Assembly: GCA_022793555.1 (NCBI GenBank)
Contig: JAAWDB010000105.1
Location: 1-15,509 of the forward strand
Direction: 5' to 3'
Length of the DNA: 15,509 bases
Source: Bacilli bacterium
GTDB taxonomy: Bacteria > Bacillota_I > Bacilli_A > RF39 > UBA660
Below, one piece after another: positions 4,012 to 15,338 of this stretch. The notes under the pieces were generated by a model, which made no database searches, was not told the DNA's origin, and saw only the letters and a list, made by a program, of their open reading frames with translations. The first letter of the stretch is position 1. Each line of letters begins with the position of its first letter. The position numbers and the translations under genes are program-made.

Positions 4012-4221
4012 TTACATATTTTTTGTCATTTGATTCATTACTTGTTTTACTTGCTTTTGACTTGGTTTTCGTCCCATACTGCTCATCATTGCTTCAATCA
4101 TTTTTTCGTTGATTGGAGGATTCTTTTGCATGTATTTTTTTGTTGCAGTACGAGCAAGTAAAAATCCGATCACTGCCCCAATTACAATTCCTAATAATAC
4201 TAATAATATGTCTCCTAACAT
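4012..4221 (-). CDS. yneF: YneF family (UPF0154) small membrane protein
   Basis: A 69-residue protein with one N-terminal membrane helix (residues about 3-23, [23 protein letters not shown]) and a conserved basic cytoplasmic part: [19 protein letters not shown] and [16 protein letters not shown]. The KNPPINE and GRKPSQK segments match B. subtilis YneF closely, and the length is normal for the family. No biochemical role is established for it. GGAGG lies 6 nt before the ATG. As in B. subtilis, it follows tkt and sirA in the same order and direction. Confidence 0.93.
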
Positions 4222-4274: not shown

Positions 4275-4691
4275 TTACACCGCTATTTTTTCTAGCCAAA
4301 AATAATCTTTATTTTCAAAATCACAAAAAAACAAATTTTTTTCTTTTTCTAGATCCTTTAGAAAAGAAGGTCTTGGAATCGTACTTTCCATTTCTAAATA
4401 TGTACGGTTTACAATTAATTTGGTTCTTTCTTGACGATACACATCATAAATTTGATGTACGTTGCGGTATTTTGAATAAAAATAGTTTTCTTTATAATTT
4501 TTAAATAATTCAATATCTAGTTGTTTGGGATTCATTTTTTCTATAATTCTTTCAAATAAATCTACTCCTAGTTCCAAATCATTTTTATCAACATAATAGA
4601 TTTGTTCTAGTGTTCGATATAAATGATGGGGATTTTTTTTGGTTAAAATAGCTAACTCATCTTTAATTTTAAAAATGAAAAATTGTCTCAT
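4275..4691 (-). CDS. sirA: Sporulation inhibitor of replication SirA
   Basis: About 138 residues from the ATG at 4691 (a GTG at 4700 in the same frame lies in the GGGTGA ribosome-binding site and is less likely). SirA binds domain I of the initiator DnaA and blocks new rounds of replication when a cell commits to sporulation. The C-terminal LFFCDFENKDYFWLEKI matches the DFNSKRYGWL end of B. subtilis SirA, and the overall plan (N-terminal RQFFIFKIKDEL strand/helix, central LFERI, KENYFYSKY) and length (148 in B. subtilis) agree; sequence identity looks low. Gene order tkt-sirA-yneF is the same as in B. subtilis. A perfect Spo0A box lies in its promoter, which is how sirA is activated in Bacillus. 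The combined evidence makes the call firm despite sequence drift. Confidence 0.88.
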   Translation of the reverse strand: MRQFFIFKIKDELAILTKKNPHHLYRTLEQIYYVDKNDLELGVDLFERIIEKMNPKQLDIELFKNYKENYFYSKYRNVHQIYDVYRQERTKLIVNRTYLEMESTIPRPSFLKDLEKEKNLFFCDFENKDYFWLEKIAV

Positions 4692-4708
4692 AAATTTCAC
4701 CCAAATCT

Positions 4709-4766: not shown

Positions 4767-6746
4767 TTATCTTAATAAGGATTCTACTTTTGCTTTTAAC
4801 GAAAGATAATCAAAGCCCATTTTTTGTTCAACTTCAAATGGCCGTCCACTATAACCAAATTCATTAATTCCAATAATACTCTCATAACTGTTGGTAAAAC
4901 GATTCCAAATTAGAGGATTTTCGGCAGAAATTACTATTCGTTTTACTGTACTTGGTAAAATAAGCTCTTCATATTCTTTACCTTCGCTTAAAAACAACTC
5001 CATCGATGGCATGGATACAACACGAACATCTAAACCGATTTGTTCAAAATCATAAGCCATTTGTAGTGCATAAACTAGTTCACTACCAGAACTTATTAGA
5101 ATTCCATCTAATTTCGTTTTTTCTTTTTTTATAATATAAGCACCTTTAGAGACTTCTTTAGCACTACTCCCTGGTAATTTTGGAGAATCATTTTTGGTGA
5201 TGATCAGTGCAGATGGTAAATTCTTTTTTAAAATACATTCCCAAGATCCCATTACCTCCATAATATCTCCTGGACGATAGCAAATTAAGTTTGGTGTAGT
5301 ATGTAACATGGATAGTTGCTCTATAGGTTGCATTACTGGTCCATCTTCGCCAATGTGAATCGTATCATGAGTAAAGATATAAGTAACAGGTAGATTCATT
5401 AATGCTGTTAATCTTAATGAAGATTTTAAGTAATCCGCATAGATTAATTTAGTACTGCCATATACTTTTAATCCAACAAGGGCCATACCATTTAAAATAG
5501 ATGCCATGGCATTTTCTCGAGATCCAAAACGGATATTACGCCCTAATTTGTTTTTGGGATTTAATTCACCTGTGTTATTTAAAAAGCTTTGACAAGATAA
5601 AGAAGAATCAGCACTTCCTCCTAAGATTAATGGTGTTTTGCCGCCAATAATATTTAATATTTTTAAATTTGTTTCGCGTAATGATTCCCGATAATTATCA
5701 TTAATTTTATAATTATCGCTATTAAAATTGAAATTCCATTGCTTATTTTCTAAAGCATTTTTTATTTCTATTAACCGAGGATTTTGTTGACCTTCTAATC
5801 TTTTATAAATTTCTTGCCACTTTTGATATTTTTTATCGCTACGATCGTTAATGCCTTTTTGAAAATAAATAATACTATCTTTTGATATTTCAAATGGCGG
5901 TAAAAATAAGTTCCATTTTTTTCTTAAATTGGCAACATCATCCGTTGTTAATGGTCGATTATAAGTAATACTCTTATTTTCGTTAAATGATCCACTTCCT
6001 AAAATAGTTTTAAATATTAATAATGATGGACGTCCACTTTTTTTAGCGGATGAAATTGCGCGATCAATGTCACGAATGTTGGAACCATCTTTTAGCATAT
6101 CGACATAAAAACCTAAAGCTTGATATTTCTTTACGATATCTTCATTAATTGTCGTATCTAGTGGACCATCTTCCGTGATATTTGTGCAACTATATAAGAT
6201 TATTAAATTATTTAATTGTTGAACTCCCGCAAAGGATAACGCTTCATTTGTAATTCCTTCCATAAAGTCCGCATCATCACATAGACAATAGGTCGTATAA
6301 TCGATTAACTTTAAACGATCATCTTCACTTTCAAAGACATTTTTAATATATTTTCCTGCTAAGGCGACACCCGTTGCACAAGCAATACCTTCCCCATGTA
6401 ATCCAGTAGTAGCTTCCACCCCTGGAGTTCTCATATATTCTAAAATTCCTGGAGTAATACTATTTATGGTTCGGTAGTTCATCAAGTCTTCTTTTTTTAT
6501 TGGAAATCCAGCCATGTGTAATGCTGCATAAATTAAACTAGAAGCGCCTTGAGATGAAACGATTAAACGATCACGATTAAGCCAATTTGGTTCATTTGGA
6601 CGAATGCATAAATGGCGATGAAACAAAGTATATACAATTGGTGCCATACTTAAAGCTAAGCCTGGAGAACCACTTCCTGCTCTAGTAATCATATCTATAC
6701 TTAAAATTTTTAATTCATTTAATGTACGAATATCCTCTTGATTCAT
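4767..6746 (-). CDS. tkt: Transketolase-like protein lacking the active-site histidines
   Basis: 659 residues, the normal length of transketolase, and collinear with it over all three domains: PNWLNRDR (53-60), TPGVEATTG (107-115), DFMEG (160-164), GRNIRFGSRENAM (402-414), THDTIHIGEDGP (459-470). Transketolase uses thiamine diphosphate to move two-carbon ketol units between sugar phosphates. The residues that do this are largely missing. SGHPG is SGSPG (Ser27), SAGHGS is SSQGAS (Gly67), PGHPE is PGILE (Ile101), AVHGAPL is ITYNRPL (Tyr262), and GPTHQP is GPVMQP (Met472). The Mg ligand Asn is Thr188 and GDGD is DDAD, although Asp158 and the cofactor-activating Glu411 remain. The phosphate-binding Arg appears as Lys (LTRQNLP to ITKNDSP). 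The frame is intact with no sign of decay, so it may be a pseudoenzyme or have changed chemistry. It sits where the ordinary tkt lies in B. subtilis (lexA...tkt-sirA-yneF). The ATG follows AGAAGGTG. Confidence 0.9.
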   Translation of the reverse strand: MNQEDIRTLNELKILSIDMITRAGSGSPGLALSMAPIVYTLFHRHLCIRPNEPNWLNRDRLIVSSQGASSLIYAALHMAGFPIKKEDLMNYRTINSITPGILEYMRTPGVEATTGLHGEGIACATGVALAGKYIKNVFESEDDRLKLIDYTTYCLCDDADFMEGITNEALSFAGVQQLNNLIILYSCTNITEDGPLDTTINEDIVKKYQALGFYVDMLKDGSNIRDIDRAISSAKKSGRPSLLIFKTILGSGSFNENKSITYNRPLTTDDVANLRKKWNLFLPPFEISKDSIIYFQKGINDRSDKKYQKWQEIYKRLEGQQNPRLIEIKNALENKQWNFNFNSDNYKINDNYRESLRETNLKILNIIGGKTPLILGGSADSSLSCQSFLNNTGELNPKNKLGRNIRFGSRENAMASILNGMALVGLKVYGSTKLIYADYLKSSLRLTALMNLPVTYIFTHDTIHIGEDGPVMQPIEQLSMLHTTPNLICYRPGDIMEVMGSWECILKKNLPSALIITKNDSPKLPGSSAKEVSKGAYIIKKEKTKLDGILISSGSELVYALQMAYDFEQIGLDVRVVSMPSMELFLSEGKEYEELILPSTVKRIVISAENPLIWNRFTNSYESIIGINEFGYSGRPFEVEQKMGFDYLSLKAKVESLLR

Positions 6747-6770
6747 AATGCACCTTCTTATTCTAGAATT

Positions 6771-6799
6771 AGTATAACAAATTTTAAAGATGCACTCAA
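6771..6799 (-). promoter_or_regulatory. SigmaA-type promoter of the transketolase-like gene
   Basis: TTGAGT (6794-6799), a 17-nt spacer and TATACT (6771-6776), 24 nt before the start codon. No LexA box is seen here, so this gene can be transcribed apart from the SOS operon upstream. No terminator separates the two. Confidence 0.65.
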
Positions 6800-6804
6800 A
6801 TATT

Positions 6805-7110
6805 TTATGTGTAATATTCTGACAGTACTCTTTGCTTTTCTTCTAATAAAGCATCAAAAATGTTGATTTCTAATTTATTACAGAGGGATAAAAGAACGGA
6901 AAAAATACTTGTGACATCGCCTTTTTGCGATATTTTGTCTTCTTCATACATATCTTTGGCTAAGTCAATTACTTTTTCAAATAGTGAGAAAATTTCATCA
7001 TCTAATAAATTATCGTGATACTTCTCTTTCATTATGTCTTCTACATATTTCTGGATTAAAACTAAGCTACCTTTGGTTTTTATTTTTTTTAATAATTCTT
7101 TCTTGCACAT
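6805..7110 (-). CDS. Small all-helical protein, possibly MazG-like, in the lexA-divergent operon
   Basis: 101 residues, soluble, without signal or membrane segment. The second half, FEKVIDLAKDMY (44-55) then GDVTSIFSVLLSLCNKLEINIFDALLEEK, follows the rhythm of MazG-type nucleotide pyrophosphohydrolases (E..E helix, then ELADVL..ll.lanklGidleeal.eK), but the metal-binding EExxE and ExxD motifs are not clearly conserved. It may be a degenerate or non-catalytic relative, or simply a similar helical fold. The ATG is preceded by TAAGGAGGAG, which also contains the stop codon of the upstream small gene (13-nt gap), so the two are co-transcribed from a promoter carrying a LexA-type box. If MazG-like, a role in nucleotide-pool cleansing during DNA damage would fit; this is inference. 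Confidence 0.7.
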   Translation of the reverse strand: MCKKELLKKIKTKGSLVLIQKYVEDIMKEKYHDNLLDDEIFSLFEKVIDLAKDMYEEDKISQKGDVTSIFSVLLSLCNKLEINIFDALLEEKQRVLSEYYT

Positions 7111-7378: not shown

Positions 7379-7398
7379 GTTAATGGGTGATTATACGG

Positions 7399-8031
7399 AT
7401 GATAATAAATTCCGAAAAAACTTTAACAAAAAAGCAAAATGAAGTCTTAGATTATATTAAAAAGTATACTGCGAAACATGGGTATCCTCCGGCAATTCGA
7501 GAAATTGGAGCAGGACTTGGTTTATCTAGTCCAGCAACCGTTCATACCCATGTCAAAAAGTTAGAAGAAGCTGGTGTGATTAAAACTTCTAGTAATAAGT
7601 TTCGAACGATTGAAATACTTGTAGATAATGAATACGAAGAAAATCATGATGATGTTATAAAGGTCCCTTTACTTGGAAAAGTTACGGCAGGAAATCCGAT
7701 TGAAGCCATTGAACGACCAAATGAATTTTTTGATCTTCCTGCGGCTTTGATTCCTTCGAAAGAAAGCGTTTTTACTTTAGAGGTTAGCGGTGAATCGATG
7801 ATTAATGCAGGAATTTATGATGGAGATTATGTTATTGTTCAAAAACAAAGTACAGCTAGAAATGGTGAAATCGTGGTTGCCATGACCGAAGATAATGAAG
7901 TTACTTTAAAAACTTTTTATAAAGAAGATGGACATATTCGTTTACAACCAGAAAATGATACCATGGCACCTTTTATTTTTGAAAATGTCACGATTATTGG
8001 AAAAGCAATTGGACTTTATCGTAAATTTTAA
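7399..8031 (+). CDS. lexA: SOS repressor LexA
   Basis: 210 residues from the ATG at 7399. A GTG at 7387 in frame would add four residues, but it lies within the GGGTGAT ribosome-binding site and at the predicted transcription start. The N-terminal winged helix-turn-helix covers about 5-75 (KQNEVLDYIKKYTAKHGYPP, REIGAGLGLSSPATVHTHVKKLEE). Autocleavage is at Ala97-Gly98 in GKVTAGNPI. The catalytic Ser133 is in SGESM and Lys171 in VTLKTF. LexA represses DNA-damage genes and cleaves itself when stimulated by RecA filaments. Length and motifs are normal (B. subtilis 205). It is divergent from a two-gene operon with LexA boxes between them and ends at a strong terminator. Confidence 0.98.
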   Translation: MIINSEKTLTKKQNEVLDYIKKYTAKHGYPPAIREIGAGLGLSSPATVHTHVKKLEEAGVIKTSSNKFRTIEILVDNEYEENHDDVIKVPLLGKVTAGNPIEAIERPNEFFDLPAALIPSKESVFTLEVSGESMINAGIYDGDYVIVQKQSTARNGEIVVAMTEDNEVTLKTFYKEDGHIRLQPENDTMAPFIFENVTIIGKAIGLYRKF

Positions 8032-11252: not shown

Positions 11253-12029
11253 TTATTTGATTAACTTTCGAACATTAGTAATTGCACTTTTTTCGATACG
11301 TGAGACTTGAGCTTGACTAATTCCTAAACGATCGGCAATTTCCATTTGGGTCTTACCAATAATAAAGCGTTCCTTTAGGATATTTCGTTCTCGTTCACGC
11401 AATTTCTCAATCGCTTTATTCATAGAAATTATCATATCTTGATCTCTACTCTTTTCTTTTTTGTCCGCTAATTGATCTAGTAAATATATGGTATCACCCC
11501 CATCATTATATATGGGTTCAAAAATACTTACTGGTTCTTTTAAAGAATCGAGTGCATAGGAAATTTTATATTCTTCAATTTCTAAAATTTGAGCAATTTC
11601 CGCATTTGTTGGTTCATAGCCATTTTTTGTCATATACTCTTCTTTGCATTTTAATATTTGATAAGCTAAATCTTTCACGCTTCTACTTACACGGACACTT
11701 GTATTATCTCTAATGTATCGTTTAATTTCTCCTAAAATTAAAGGACAAGCATATGTACTCAATTTTAAATTATAAGATAAATCAAAATTATCAATGGCTT
11801 TAATTAACCCAATAACTCCAACTTGAAATAAATCATCTAGGTTATATTTGGAATTATTAAAACGTTTTAGAATACTTAATACTAATTTTAAATTGCCATT
11901 TACCAGTTCTTCTTTGGCATTTAAATCTCCACTTTGATATTTCTTAAATAATTCTATGGTTTCACTACTTTTTAATACTTTAATATTATTGGTATTTAGA
12001 CCAGTAATGTCTACTTTATATCGTGCCAT
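11253..12029 (-). CDS. sigG: Forespore sigma factor SigG
   Basis: 258 residues, close to B. subtilis SigG (260). The start RYKVDITGLNT corresponds to the NKVEICGVDT N-terminus specific to SigG. Region 2 is at about 40-107 (NGNLKLVLSILKRF, DDLFQVGVIGLIKAIDNFDL, STYACPLILGEIKRYIRDN). The central part contains VRVSRSVKDLAYQ and EPVSIFEPIYNDGGDTIYLLDQ, a SigG/SigF hallmark. Region 4 has GKTQMEIADRLGISQAQVSRIEK with the helix-turn-helix. SigG directs late forespore genes. It follows sigE in the same direction with a 129-nt gap that holds a large hairpin covering its ribosome-binding site. A TGAATA hexamer at 12096-12101, like the -35 of sigmaF/sigmaG promoters, lacks a clear partner -10, so its own promoter is not resolved. 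Confidence 0.97.
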   Translation of the reverse strand: MARYKVDITGLNTNNIKVLKSSETIELFKKYQSGDLNAKEELVNGNLKLVLSILKRFNNSKYNLDDLFQVGVIGLIKAIDNFDLSYNLKLSTYACPLILGEIKRYIRDNTSVRVSRSVKDLAYQILKCKEEYMTKNGYEPTNAEIAQILEIEEYKISYALDSLKEPVSIFEPIYNDGGDTIYLLDQLADKKEKSRDQDMIISMNKAIEKLRERERNILKERFIIGKTQMEIADRLGISQAQVSRIEKSAITNVRKLIK

Positions 12030-12031
12030 TT

Positions 12032-12074
12032 AAAAAGCCCCTTTCAACTATCTGTTGGTTAAAAAGAGCTTTTT
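12032..12074 (-). promoter_or_regulatory. Leader hairpin sequestering the sigG ribosome-binding site
   Basis: On the transcript a 15- to 17-bp stem (12058-12074 with 12032-12048, including three G-U pairs and no mismatch) closes a 9-nt loop and ends only 2 nt before the sigG ATG. The Shine-Dalgarno AAAGGGG (12039-12044 region) lies in the 3' arm and is fully paired. The 3' arm ends in TTTTT, so the structure could also act as a terminator for sigE read-through. Confidence 0.75.
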
Positions 12075-12158
12075 TTATTCAATTATTGTTCATTCTATTC
12101 AAAACTTCGATTTTGTTTGACATTATTTAGCATTTCTTTTAAATTTTTAATAATGTTT

Positions 12159-12821
12159 TCAAGTTTTTAATGACTTTTTTTCAATTCTTGAAATATAAGA
12201 TTGACTGATTCCTAGCATTTCAGCAACTTCTTTTTGGGTATATTCATCAGTGTTGTTTAAGCCATAACGTAAAACCATAATTTGTTTGTCACGATCATTT
12301 AATTTATTAATTTCTTTCGAAAGTAAATTTTTTTCCATGTTCGATTCAAACTCTTTGCTCACTAAATCATCATCAGTTCCTAAAATATCTTCTAGGTGTA
12401 ATTCGTTGCCTTCGGCATCATAATTTAAAGAATCTTCTAAGGATATTTCTCCTCTTCTTTTTTTATTTTTTCTTAGAAACATTAATATTTCATTGGCAAT
12501 ACAGCGTGAGGCATATGTAGCAAGCTTAATGTTTTTATCGATTTTGTAGGTATTAATGCCTTTTATTAAGCCTATCGAACCAATACTTACTAAGTCTTCT
12601 ACTTCATAACCGGTGTTTTCATATTTTTTGGCTAAGAAAACGACTAAGCGTAAGTTATGTTCAATTAAAATATTTCTTGCCTCATCATCCCCTTGGCTCA
12701 CTTTAATTAGATATTCTAATTCTTTTTCTTTGCTAAGGGGCGGCGGAAGTTTATCGGTGCTTCCAACAAAGAAACATTCGCTATATTTTTTTCGTAACCA
12801 TAATAAGATTTTTTTTAACAT
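12159..12821 (-). CDS. sigE: Mother-cell sigma factor, pro-SigE
   Basis: 220 residues from the ATG at 12821, chosen because AGGAGG lies 7 nt upstream; an earlier ATG at 12839 has no ribosome-binding site. The N-terminal pro-sequence (MLKKILLWLRKKYSECFFVGS) precedes DKLPPPLSKEKE; the CFFVG segment aligns with the VYYIG site where SpoIIGA cuts B. subtilis pro-SigE. Region 2: HNLRLVVFLAKKYENTGYEVEDLVSIGSIGLIKG and LATYASRCIANEILMFLR. Region 4: TQKEVAEMLGISQSYISRIEKK. The frame then ends with SLKT and TGA, some 9-12 residues short of the usual C-terminus. A -1 shift at the A7 run (12175-12181) instead gives IEKKVIKNLKTLLKI and stops at 12139, matching the IEKRIIKRLRKEF end of known SigE. Overlaps spoIIGA by 7 nt (translational coupling). 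Confidence 0.95.
   Translation of the reverse strand: MLKKILLWLRKKYSECFFVGSTDKLPPPLSKEKELEYLIKVSQGDDEARNILIEHNLRLVVFLAKKYENTGYEVEDLVSIGSIGLIKGINTYKIDKNIKLATYASRCIANEILMFLRKNKKRRGEISLEDSLNYDAEGNELHLEDILGTDDDLVSKEFESNMEKNLLSKEINKLNDRDKQIMVLRYGLNNTDEYTQKEVAEMLGISQSYISRIEKKSLKT
12174..12180 (-). other. Slippery heptamer A AAA AAG near the 3' end of sigE
   Basis: The zero frame reads GAA AAA AAG TCA, so the sequence fits the X XXY YYZ pattern of -1 frameshift sites exactly. A -1 slip continues as GTC ATT AAA AAC TTG and ends at the TAA at 12139-12141. It may instead be a simple indel in a homopolymer, real or from sequencing. Confidence 0.55.
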
Positions 12822-13609
12822 ATTAAGTCCTCCTGACATTTAGAATTTAAAATACAATTTATTCCATCAATATGAAATTCTTCTTCACTAATCCCAATTA
12901 AATATTTTTTGGATTTCTGTCCTTTTATTTCTACATATTCCGGAGAAATGCATTTTAATAAACCATGATTATTTAGGGAATGATAAGGAACATAAATTAT
13001 TCTTTTGGTATCGATTTTTTTTAAACTTGCTTTTTCAAGCAATATAATCGCTTTATTCGTGATGGGATCCAGTAATTTATTTCCTGTATCTAAAAAAGCA
13101 TTGCAAGTTAATTTCTGACCGTCTTTAAAGAAAATAAATAATTCATAGTAATGGTTGTACTGACTTTTTAATTTTTTATTACTTCTTAAATAAATATATA
13201 AAATTACGGGAGATATTATGATTAGAAAGATAAAATTAATGGATAAACCTTCATGAAAGAAAACAATGCCTTTTTGTTTGTAGCTAAATTCGATGTTTAA
13301 GTAATATAAGAATCCACCAAGAATAGTTCCTGTCATATAGAAATAAATCATATTTTGGAATGTGTAGCGCCAATTTTTGAAATGGAAACTAACAATGCAA
13401 ATGAGAAATGAGGTGATGATTTTAAAAATAATTAAAAACATTTTGGAACAAGGAAGAAACAAGAAGATTAAGGTTAAGGATCCTAAAAGGGCGCCCAAAA
13501 CTAACTTTTTCCAGGAACTATTTCGCTTTAAGGTATAATTAACCGTCAATAGTAAAAGAAAATCCATACTAAAATTTAAAAGCGCTATTAAATCAAGATA
13601 GATTTTCAT
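12815..13609 (-). CDS. spoIIGA: Sporulation sigma-E factor processing peptidase SpoIIGA
   Basis: 264 residues. The N-terminal half has about five membrane helices (roughly 6-24, 35-53, 57-76, 87-104, 122-142); the C-terminal half is a cytoplasmic aspartic protease domain with the catalytic Asp174 in AFLDTGNKLLDP and a YVPYHSL segment. It sits in the septum and cleaves pro-SigE in the mother cell after a forespore signal (SpoIIR). Somewhat shorter than B. subtilis SpoIIGA (309). The ATG at 13609 follows GGTGATG. The stop overlaps the start of sigE, the standard spoIIG operon layout. Confidence 0.96.
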   Translation of the reverse strand: MKIYLDLIALLNFSMDFLLLLTVNYTLKRNSSWKKLVLGALLGSLTLIFLFLPCSKMFLIIFKIITSFLICIVSFHFKNWRYTFQNMIYFYMTGTILGGFLYYLNIEFSYKQKGIVFFHEGLSINFIFLIIISPVILYIYLRSNKKLKSQYNHYYELFIFFKDGQKLTCNAFLDTGNKLLDPITNKAIILLEKASLKKIDTKRIIYVPYHSLNNHGLLKCISPEYVEIKGQKSKKYLIGISEEEFHIDGINCILNSKCQEDLIC

Positions 13610-13624
13610 ATCATCACCAAAATG

Positions 13625-13658
13625 ATTATAAAAAAAAAGAATCGTAAAAACTGTCGAT
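13625..13658 (-). promoter_or_regulatory. Candidate spoIIG promoter with a Spo0A-like box
   Basis: TATAAT (13625-13630) lies 15 nt before the spoIIGA start codon. TGTCGAT on the plus strand at 13652-13658 (ATCGACA on the coding strand) matches the Spo0A box TGTCGAA at six of seven bases and lies 21 nt upstream of the -10, where 0A boxes cover the -35 of spoIIG in B. subtilis. Half of the box is also the arm of the terminator of the preceding gene. Confidence 0.5.
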
Positions 13659-13662
13659 TCTT
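13630..13662 (-). terminator. Intrinsic terminator of the gene upstream of spoIIGA
   Basis: An 8-bp stem AAGAATCG/CGATTCTT (13655-13662, 13637-13644) with a 10-nt loop is followed by T-rich sequence on the minus strand. The first arm starts in the TAA stop codon at 13661-13663. Confidence 0.75.
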
Positions 13663-14224
13663 ATAATTCTCTTTTCTTTTTTAGTCCATCTGAAGAAGTT
13701 CGGAAATATTTTTCTAATGCTTGTAAATCTTGCCAATCAGAATCTGTTTTTTCTAATTGTTTTAATTCTTTTAGTGTATATAATGCACAAACAAGCGTTA
13801 AACTAACCAAAGTTCTTTCTAAATTATCCGTTGGGATGATGGATAATAGATTTTGAATTCCCTCTTTTAATACCGGAATATTTGATATCGCTGAAAGTAA
13901 GGTCATCGTTAAGCCACAAAATGCTTTGCTATTACTTTCTTTTCTTAAACGCTTTAATTTACGATTCTCGGTTTCATACCATGCTTGACATACGGCATAA
14001 TCAACCTTTAAAGATTCGGTACAAAAATAGTGAAAAATGTCAGCAGATAAGTGTTTTCTTAAAATATCCGTGACCATAATTTCCTTATTTTGTAAAATTT
14101 CATCAGCATCTGATATCATTTTTCCTATTTGTTCTTGATCTTGTTTGCTTTCTAAAATGATCTTTTTCATCCAAGCAATATCTTGTTTTATTCTTACTAA
14201 TTCTTCATGAACATTTTTATTCAT
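13661..14224 (-). CDS. Uncharacterised protein between ftsZ and spoIIGA
   Basis: 187 residues. The first about 60 residues are charged and helix-prone (EELVRIKQDIAWMKKIILESKQDQEQIGK), likely a coiled coil. A middle part (about 57-98) contains two Cys residues and basic stretches (NRKLKRLRKES). Two hydrophobic stretches follow, about 101-119 (AFCGLTMTLLSAISNIPVL) and 137-151 (LVSLTLVCALYTLKEL), which may be weak membrane or buried helices, and a charged tail ends KKKREL. No family recognised. AGAAGG lies 7 nt before the ATG. It has its own promoter and terminator, between the division and sporulation operons; B. subtilis has an unrelated gene (bpr) at this place. Position suggests but does not show a link to division or sporulation. 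Confidence 0.8.
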   Translation of the reverse strand: MNKNVHEELVRIKQDIAWMKKIILESKQDQEQIGKMISDADEILQNKEIMVTDILRKHLSADIFHYFCTESLKVDYAVCQAWYETENRKLKRLRKESNSKAFCGLTMTLLSAISNIPVLKEGIQNLLSIIPTDNLERTLVSLTLVCALYTLKELKQLEKTDSDWQDLQALEKYFRTSSDGLKKKREL

Positions 14225-14240
14225 TTCTTTGCCTTCTTTT

Positions 14241-14269
14241 AGTTTATTTTTTTCATCCTTAAAAGTTAA
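14241..14269 (-). promoter_or_regulatory. SigmaA-type promoter of the uncharacterised gene
   Basis: TTAACT (14264-14269), a 17-nt spacer and TAAACT (14241-14246), 16 nt before the start codon at 14224. Confidence 0.5.
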
Positions 14270-14293
14270 GAAAAAGATCTCTTACGAAATCTT
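14268..14293 (-). terminator. Intrinsic terminator of ftsZ
   Basis: AAGATTTC (14286-14293) pairs with GAGATCTT (14274-14281) over a GTAA loop (one G-U pair), followed by TTTCTT on the minus strand. The first arm begins inside the ftsZ stop codon. Confidence 0.65.
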
Positions 14294-15338
14294 AATAATC
14301 ATCTCTACTTCTTAAGAATGGTGGAATATCATATTCTGTATCCATATTACTCATTCTTCTTTTGGGCATTGAGTCGTCTGTTTCTTCACTTTTTCCATCA
14401 AAACCAGTTGCGATGACAGTTACAATTACCTCATCATTTAAATTTGAATTTTGAATGGCACCAAAGACAATGTTAATATCACTATTAGCGGCTTCACGAA
14501 CCGTTTCAACGGCATCTTCAATTTCAAAAAGTGTTAATGAATTACCACCCGTAATATTGATAATAGCATCGGTTGCTCCATCGATTGTTGTTTCTAAAAG
14601 AGCACTAGATACTGCTTGACGTGCTGCTTCAACAGCTCTATTTTCACCAATTCCCATACCGATTCCAATTAAAGCAGTTCCACTTTTTTCCATCACTGTT
14701 TTTACATCAGCAAAGTCTAAGTTAATGACTCCAGTTACGGCAATTAAATCCGAAATTGACTGAACACCACGATGTAAGACATTGTCTACTTCTTTAAAGG
14801 CATCTTGGAAACTTGTTGTTTTATCAATAATATCTCTTAAGCGATCATTTGGAATAATGATTAAGGTATCAACATGTTTTTTTAATTCTTCTAACCCAAT
14901 TAGGGCATTTTCCATACGCTTTTTTCCTTCAAAGCGGAAAGGTTTTGTAACAATTCCTACGGTAAGAGCTCCAGCTTCTTGAGCAATTTCCGCAATAATT
15001 GGTGCAGAACCAGTACCTGTTCCACCACCTAAACCACATGCGATAAAAACCATATCGGCACCTTTTACCGATTCTTCAATTAAAGCTTTACTCTCTAGTG
15101 CAGCTTCTCTTCCAATTTCCGGGTTTGATCCAGCGCCACGACCACCTGTAATATTTTCACCAATTTGAATTTTATTTTTGGCCTCGGAAGCATTTAAAAC
15201 TTGTAAATCGGTGTTTACTACATAGAATTCTACACCTTGAACGCCTTCTTCAATCATACGGTTTACGGCGTTACATCCACCGCCACCACAACCAAATACT
15301 TTAATTTTTGCAATTGGGTCTATTTTTAATCCGTCCAT
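14292..15338 (-). CDS. ftsZ: Cell division protein FtsZ
   Basis: 348 residues. This tubulin-like GTPase polymerises into the Z-ring at the division site. The GTP-binding [14 protein letters not shown] is at 15-28, the tubulin signature GGGTGTG at 104-110, and the T7 loop region [14 protein letters not shown] contributes the catalytic aspartate in polymers. The C-terminal tail [13 protein letters not shown] contains the conserved peptide that binds FtsA and other partners. The linker between the GTPase core and this tail is short (about 20 residues, [20 protein letters not shown]), which explains the shorter length than B. subtilis FtsZ (382). AAGGAGAG lies before the ATG, and ftsA ends 12 nt upstream, so the two are one operon. 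Confidence 0.99.

Follow-up and report, generated by a model that had tools for sequence, protein, structure and literature searches.

Why should a bacterium keep a complete transketolase gene whose product seems to have lost its active site? The question is raised by a stretch of 15,509 nucleotides (contig JAAWDB010000105.1 of assembly GCA_022793555.1, hereafter the window) from a bacterium of the family UBA660 (RF39; Bacilli_A), whose members probably live in the gut. A transketolase gene (tkt) encoding 659 amino acids lies on its minus strand at 4767..6746. A sequence-only reading had proposed that its product is either a pseudoenzyme with a regulatory role or a thiamine diphosphate (ThDP) enzyme with another substrate. 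The former is favoured here: with a probability of about 0.58, the gene encodes a transketolase pseudoenzyme retained by purifying selection for what would be a non-catalytic role. The recurrence of the loss and the frequency of phosphoketolase in these genomes lie beyond that earlier view.

Loss of active-site residues

Residues were mapped by alignment to E. coli TktA, with which HMMER alignments to three solved transketolases concur; the pocket was assessed from sequence alignment, not from model geometry. The replaced residues fall where the sequence-only reading had placed them. The substrate-binding His26 is Ser27 (codon 6666..6668, on the minus strand like all codons below), the pyrophosphate-binding His66 is Gly67 (6546..6548), His100 is Ile101 (6444..6446), the Mg ligand Asn185 is Thr188 (6183..6185), His261 is Tyr262 (5961..5963) and His473 is Met472 (5331..5333). 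The GDGD motif has indeed become DDAD, to which the change of Gly156 to Ala159 belongs, and the new histidine at 117 (6396..6398) is also real, standing beside ThDP in place of Leu116. Further changes in the pocket are Lys433 for Phe434 on the pyrimidine side of ThDP (5448..5450) and Tyr436 for Phe437. Lysine at the Phe434 position is found in all 28 proteins of the genus-level clade. Thus His26, His100, His261, His473, Phe434 and Phe437 are all replaced (S27, I101, Y262, M472, K433, Y436), and the ThDP-Mg site is not that of the active enzyme (G67, A159, T188, Y262), with Asp158 kept.

The roles of these residues are known from the L. salivarius enzyme (PMC4601599). By this assignment, and in its numbering, four of the five pyrophosphate contacts (His69, His263, Asp158, Gly159 and Asn188) are changed in the window protein, as is one of the three metal ligands. 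On the pyrimidine side, substitutions affect the contacts Leu119, Phe434, Phe437 and His473 but spare Gly117, Glu411 and Tyr440. Of the residues that touch the substrate, His28 and His263 have been replaced and Arg520 is lysine, while Ser384, Arg357, His461 and Asp469 stay. Retention of Asp158, Glu411 and His460 (TktA D155, E411 and H461) had been noticed before and holds; Asp468 (TktA D469) is kept as well. Two of the substitutions carry less weight than they had been given. The change of the phosphate-site Arg520 to Lys518 is real, although it is not a sign of decay because lysine is found in 75 of 203 canonical loci. Likewise, histidine has been lost at Met472, but on its own the change of His473 tells little, as glutamine occupies this position in mammalian transketolases (PMC4601599). 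An assembly error or chance is unlikely to explain the pattern, since the other proteins of the genus-level clade (P0002-P0028), each on its own contig, show the same kind of loss. Judged from these alignments, the window protein is very likely dead as a transketolase.

A predicted intact fold with displaced constraint

The gene was correctly taken as full length: the minus-strand open reading frame (ORF) has no internal stop, while the plus strand across the same interval is riddled with stops. The single chain has the length of the family, about 660 amino acids, and comprises the PP (7-330), Pyr (362-520) and C-terminal (535-646) domains, all three over their Pfam cut-offs. A structure prediction, as had been suggested, gives an intact fold within 1.5 Å of a solved transketolase by structural alignment, and the nearest solved structures in HMMER searches are ordinary bacterial transketolases. 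On the other hand, the protein scores 560 against the equivalog model TIGR00232, under the cut-off of 682.25. Five degenerate control proteins (P0001, P0002, P0014, P0030 and P0038) score 512-610, whereas five canonical ones (P0058, P0062, P0097, P0105 and P0108) score 669-757, four of them over the cut-off.

Where constraint remains was judged from 86 positions at which at least 97% of 203 canonical loci (201 of the family and two of the class) share one residue. Of these positions, 53 are retained at 90% or more in the 28 proteins of the genus-level clade (P0001-P0028), and 17 survive in fewer than half of them. Four of these 17 adjoin cofactor or substrate contacts (P101, L158, D183 and T472), four lie elsewhere, and His100 is a ninth contact. 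The other eight are named as cofactor or substrate contacts in the description of the L. salivarius enzyme (PMC4601599). Mean pairwise identity was also compared between 21 pocket columns of our own choice and all other columns. It is 0.90 in the pocket and 0.49 in the rest for all canonical loci, and 0.91 and 0.59 for 27 close canonical relatives; the corresponding values are 0.57 and 0.69 in the genus-level clade, 0.67 and 0.65 in clade g91 (33 proteins) and 0.67 and 0.73 in g156 (10 proteins). The C-terminal domain, at 0.42 the one that varies most among canonical loci (the PP domain stands at 0.54), is about level with the PP domain in the degenerate clades (0.70 and 0.68 in the genus-level clade, 0.65 and 0.64 in g91, 0.72 and 0.73 in g156). 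Such a shift would be expected if catalysis had been lost and the fold retained.

The same pocket bears on two readings in which the site would still bind a ligand. One holds that the pocket has been rebuilt, not destroyed, for a new ThDP chemistry or substrate. Retention of Glu411 and Asp155 in the window protein is consistent with this. However, the pocket of the genus-level clade varies more than the remainder of the protein and lacks an intact ThDP-Mg site. It is variable at positions 66 (Asn, Gly, Lys, Ser and others), 156 (Arg, Ser, Ala, Lys and others) and 473 (Met, Leu, Ala, Ile and others), while lysine is fixed at the Phe434 position, the Mg ligand Asn has become Thr in 18 of 28 proteins, and the activating Glu411, kept in the window protein, is Thr, Pro or Ser in three of 28. 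A ThDP enzyme with another substrate is therefore improbable for the window genus. The question is more open for clade g91 (P0030-P0065 except P0052, P0058 and P0062), which keeps the Mg and pyrophosphate ligands N185 (33 of 33), H261 (33 of 33) and H66 (30 of 33). In this clade the new pocket residues are nearly fixed, namely Arg or Lys at 473 (33 of 33), Tyr71 (32), Ala116 (30) and Ser160 (29), and the rebuilt pocket may bind an anionic ligand. The other reading, a sensor whose retained phosphate subsite binds a phosphorylated sugar and signals its level, seems highly improbable. The window protein has the phosphate-end residues R357, S384, H460 and Lys518 (for Arg520), and H461 in E. coli numbering has persisted throughout the genus-level clade (28 of 28 proteins), in 32 of 33 of g91 and in nine of ten of g156. 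Nevertheless, R358 is changed in nine of 28, 33 of 33 and ten of ten, respectively, so that conservation does not extend to the entire subsite.

Apparent recurrence of the loss in the family

A survey of the family found a tkt match in 284 of 386 genomes and none in 102. Ten catalytic sites could be read in 247 of the positive genomes, the remaining 37 being left unclassified as fragments, very weak matches or sequences not fetched. No site is changed in 206 (canonical; all ten readable in 201), one or two are changed in 12, and three to ten in 29 (degenerate; some sites unreadable in five). In eight transketolases (L173, L174, L193, L196, L202, L230, L231 and L243), the sole change is D155E at a Mg ligand, possibly a variant of the metal site or a first step of decay.

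Trees were built without the pocket columns, and the state counts exclude genes with one or two changes. Two further degenerate genomes of the window genus from outside the survey sample (G005 and G006) brought the degenerate loci to 31 in a tree of 252 rows. The canonical and degenerate states require eight changes in a FastTree tree of 239 rows and ten in that of 252 rows. Twelve are required in a quick IQ-TREE search with a mixture model on 73 rows hand-picked from the degenerate groups and their nearest canonical relatives. Loss and regain count alike in these figures, and long branches may stand in the wrong place. Apparently, then, loss of the active site has recurred, in 8 to 12 lineages by these counts.

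Six genera (g4, g8, g58, g81, g125 and g155) contain both canonical and degenerate members. In the IQ-TREE tree, same-genus members of the two kinds group with 98-100% support by the Shimodaira-Hasegawa-like approximate likelihood ratio test in five of the six and with 93% in g155, although the second canonical member of g58 falls elsewhere. The degenerate tip is longer than that of its canonical sister in five genera (0.43 against 0.13, 0.42 against 0.22, 0.21 against about 0.12, 0.20 against 0.067 and 0.80 against 0.45), while in g58 the degenerate tips are 0.24 and 0.32 and the canonical one 0.25. Genus g120 (L086, L087; G128, G247) has a protein of about 580 amino acids that is only 25% identical to the window protein and barely recognisable as a transketolase.

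Phosphoketolase and the pentose phosphates

Phosphoketolase (XFP_N) was found in 232 of the 386 genomes, in 231 of them over the cut-off. It accompanies 24 of 29 degenerate, 11 of 12 slightly changed and 90 of 206 canonical tkt genes, and is present in 87 of the 102 genomes without tkt; between degenerate and canonical genomes the odds ratio is 6.2 (p 1e-4). Counted by genus, with classified members only, it is found in 12 of 14 degenerate and 44 of 92 canonical-only genera (p 0.009), and every listed member of four of the six mixed genera has it. A stronger contrast in a first sample (23 of 28 degenerate genomes including G180, six of 25 canonical and 18 of 18 without tkt) was overstated, as judged from the wider set. 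In 20 phosphoketolases that were read, 19 of them from genomes with degenerate tkt, the GDGE...N motif for ThDP is kept. Phosphoketolase is likely, at most, a permissive background and not a demonstrated cause.

Two other reasons for the loss were considered and set aside. Loss of the whole pentose phosphate route is unsupported: Rpe (69 of 71 family genomes) and RpiB (67 of 71) are retained alike with canonical, degenerate or no tkt. Transaldolase (PF00923) was found in none of the 71 family genomes searched, while ten of 14 control genomes were positive. As for a failing supply of ThDP, a search for TPK_B1 (PF04265) gave no match in any of the 71 genomes, and its absence is uninformative since canonical genomes lack it too; moreover, the phosphoketolases, which are also ThDP enzymes, keep their motif. 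The gene inventory suggests instead that pentose phosphates would be handled by phosphoketolase with Rpe and RpiB. Transketolase catalysis would then become dispensable, and tkt would therefore be either deleted or retained without its active site.

Selected retention or slow decay

What distinguishes a gene kept for a role from a relic drifting towards deletion, its catalysis dispensable and only weak residual constraint left on it? The sequence-only reading had held that the gene is maintained, and several signals agree. It is present in all seven genomes of the window genus. Seven pairs within this genus, compared as had been proposed, have protein identities of 63-80% and ratios of nonsynonymous to synonymous substitution (dN/dS) of 0.122-0.225 by the NG86 method. 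By the same method, dN/dS is 0.024-0.422 in 22 pairs of which one or both members are degenerate, and 0.045-0.276 in 19 canonical pairs. The top values (0.39-0.42) belong to g108, in which nearly every catalytic site has been lost. When neutral evolution of the window gene was simulated, a mean of 13.6 stops had arisen after 0.1 substitution per site and none of 300 runs was free of stops, whereas 30 of the 31 degenerate loci have no internal stop, two of these being cut by contig ends. The exception (L006, G005) has a single in-frame TAA about ten codons from a contig end, and near-identical full-length proteins exist (P0024 and P0026). One tkt whose residues are canonical (G213:C135, L296) likewise has a single in-frame TAA.

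Expression may be retained as well. The window gene is preceded by a likely promoter, TTGAGT-17-TATACT with an extended -10 element (TGTTATACT; 6771..6799, minus strand), and by a likely ribosome-binding site, AGAAGG, ahead of its ATG (6753..6758, minus strand). Loci with an extended -10 element (TGNTATAMT) no more than 50 nt from the start number 22 of 30 among the degenerate and 120 of 174 among the canonical, compared with 0.011 elements per shuffled sequence.

No second tkt was found, as far as a genome about 70% complete allows, when the search for a canonical copy suggested earlier was made; neither was one found in six genomes of the same genus (68-90% complete), each with a single match, that of G001 being split over two contigs. 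A canonical tkt could have been missed in the window genome taken alone.

A number of observations count against a selected role. In genera g108, g156, g82 and g81, tkt is degenerate in some members and absent from others, which resembles a path to loss. Degenerate Tkt proteins evolve faster relative to the products of neighbouring genes: the median ratio of tkt to rhomboid distance is 1.87 in 15 genus pairs against 0.97 in ten canonical pairs, and that of tkt to rluD is 1.28 in 15 pairs against 1.04 in a single canonical pair. The ratios to sirA (1.39 in ten degenerate pairs, 0.65 in 28 canonical pairs) and to lexA (4.49 in degenerate pairs, 1.91 in 36 canonical pairs of much deeper divergence) point the same way. 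Synonymous divergence is saturated in many of the pairs used for dN/dS. The eight degenerate loci without a -10 element include the most eroded lineages (G390, G324, G239, G128, G247 and G130). Constraint is spread evenly, as would also be expected if only the fold were constrained, and by itself does not tell a new role from that case. E411, D155, H460 and part of the substrate-phosphate site persist in the window protein. Phosphoketolase was not found in five of the 29 degenerate genomes, and its link with degeneration is not significant in nine phylogenetically independent pairs (median p 1), about seven of which show no difference in phosphoketolase, so that there is little power and too few are informative to reach 0.05. 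Finally, we know of no partner, ligand or phenotype of a degenerate Tkt.

The faster evolution, the in-frame TAA, the missing promoter elements in the most eroded lineages, the 102 genomes without tkt and the genera that hold both absent and degenerate copies would all be expected of a slowly decaying relic with no function selected now. Such a relic, the leading rival, is nevertheless unlikely, since dN/dS is far below 1, the only stop lies near a contig end, promoter elements occur as often as they do beside canonical genes, and the gene persists in all seven genomes of a genus whose measured pairs differ by 20-37% of residues.

A pseudoenzyme retained for a non-catalytic role is supported by the predicted fold, purifying selection, the promoter-like site and the lack of a second tkt match: catalytic residues appear lost while fold and gene remain under selection. 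Such a protein would be folded, probably homodimeric and, judging from the intact ORF and promoter-like site, still expressed, but unable to bind ThDP-Mg productively or to transfer ketol groups. Most likely it would serve another protein, through surface contact, as a partner with a structural or regulatory part; the regulatory role proposed earlier stays conjectural. A broader idea is offered tentatively, as possible rather than probable: Tkt of this family may long have had another function, a non-catalytic one such as a protein contact tied to its place by lexA and sirA, which was exposed 8 to 12 times after phosphoketolase had made ketol transfer dispensable.

Relation to known transketolases and pseudoenzymes

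The window protein resembles bacterial TktA (E. coli; L. salivarius, 4c7v; TIGR00232, PF00456/PF02779/PF22613) in length, domain order, predicted fold and scaffold residues, and differs from it in the residues that bind ThDP, Mg and substrate and in its TIGR00232 score under the cut-off. Human TKTL1 is a transketolase relative that has been argued to be inactive because part of its active site is missing (PMC3485151), although its activity is disputed (PMC6334435). TKTL1, however, is a paralogue alongside active TKT and lacks a stretch of 38 residues, whereas the window gene is the only copy found, is full length and has substitutions. The trypanosome prozyme and the partner of deoxyhypusine synthase are reportedly likewise dead enzyme folds under selection; these activate a living paralogue by forming a heteromer, and no living tkt was found in the window genome or genus. 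A split-chain transketolase (6yaj/6yak) is a variant among the solved relatives, while the window gene encodes a single chain with no further match in the genome. Short N-terminal tkt matches in three members of the class (G040, G047 and G058) may be of the split-chain kind. No report of degenerate transketolases in Bacilli was found among open-licence PMC papers, searched mostly by their titles and the beginnings of their abstracts.

The pseudoenzymes available for comparison are additional paralogues that accompany an active enzyme, whereas the active site lost here is that of the sole copy found of an enzyme of central metabolism. The apparently repeated loss in one bacterial family provides natural replicates that separate transketolase catalysis from other roles, and canonical and degenerate sisters in the six mixed genera allow a direct test of whether a second function exists. 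The degenerate genes may also be annotated as transketolase, crediting genomes with a step of the pentose phosphate pathway that they probably lack.

Genomic neighbourhood and other features of the window

The gene occupies, as had been stated, the place between lexA and sirA that is common to its canonical relatives, an arrangement also found in Bacillus subtilis. Downstream lie sirA (4275..4700, minus strand; PF10747, 26.4 bits against a cut-off of 26) and yneF (UPF0154; 4012..4221, minus strand), and upstream is the divergent lexA (7387..8031, plus strand). In a context set of 26 loci (L128-L153; 25 are degenerate and one, G180, has two sites changed), lexA lies to one side of the gene and sirA or yneF to the other in 18, as in nine of 13 canonical loci; among the 18, two have a lexA match of only 29-32% identity, and lexA of G180 is about 5 kb off. 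This shared neighbourhood therefore makes the degenerate gene most likely a tkt ortholog, not a paralogue. In genomes without tkt, lexA stands beside sirA in five of 24 loci and near yneF in two more, and most of the 24 have neither gene within the 1.5 kb seen on each side (24 of 29 loci were read, five weak secondary matches being omitted).

An ORF of 101 amino acids between lexA and tkt (6805..7110, minus strand), without a match in Pfam or NCBIfam, occurs also in loci of the same genus and of genus g156. Another of 187 amino acids (13661-14224) is likewise without a match in these two databases. At 11253-15338 of the window, genes like those for the sporulation proteins SigG, SigE and SpoIIGA adjoin an ORF read by eye as ftsZ, in a genome of about 1 Mb.
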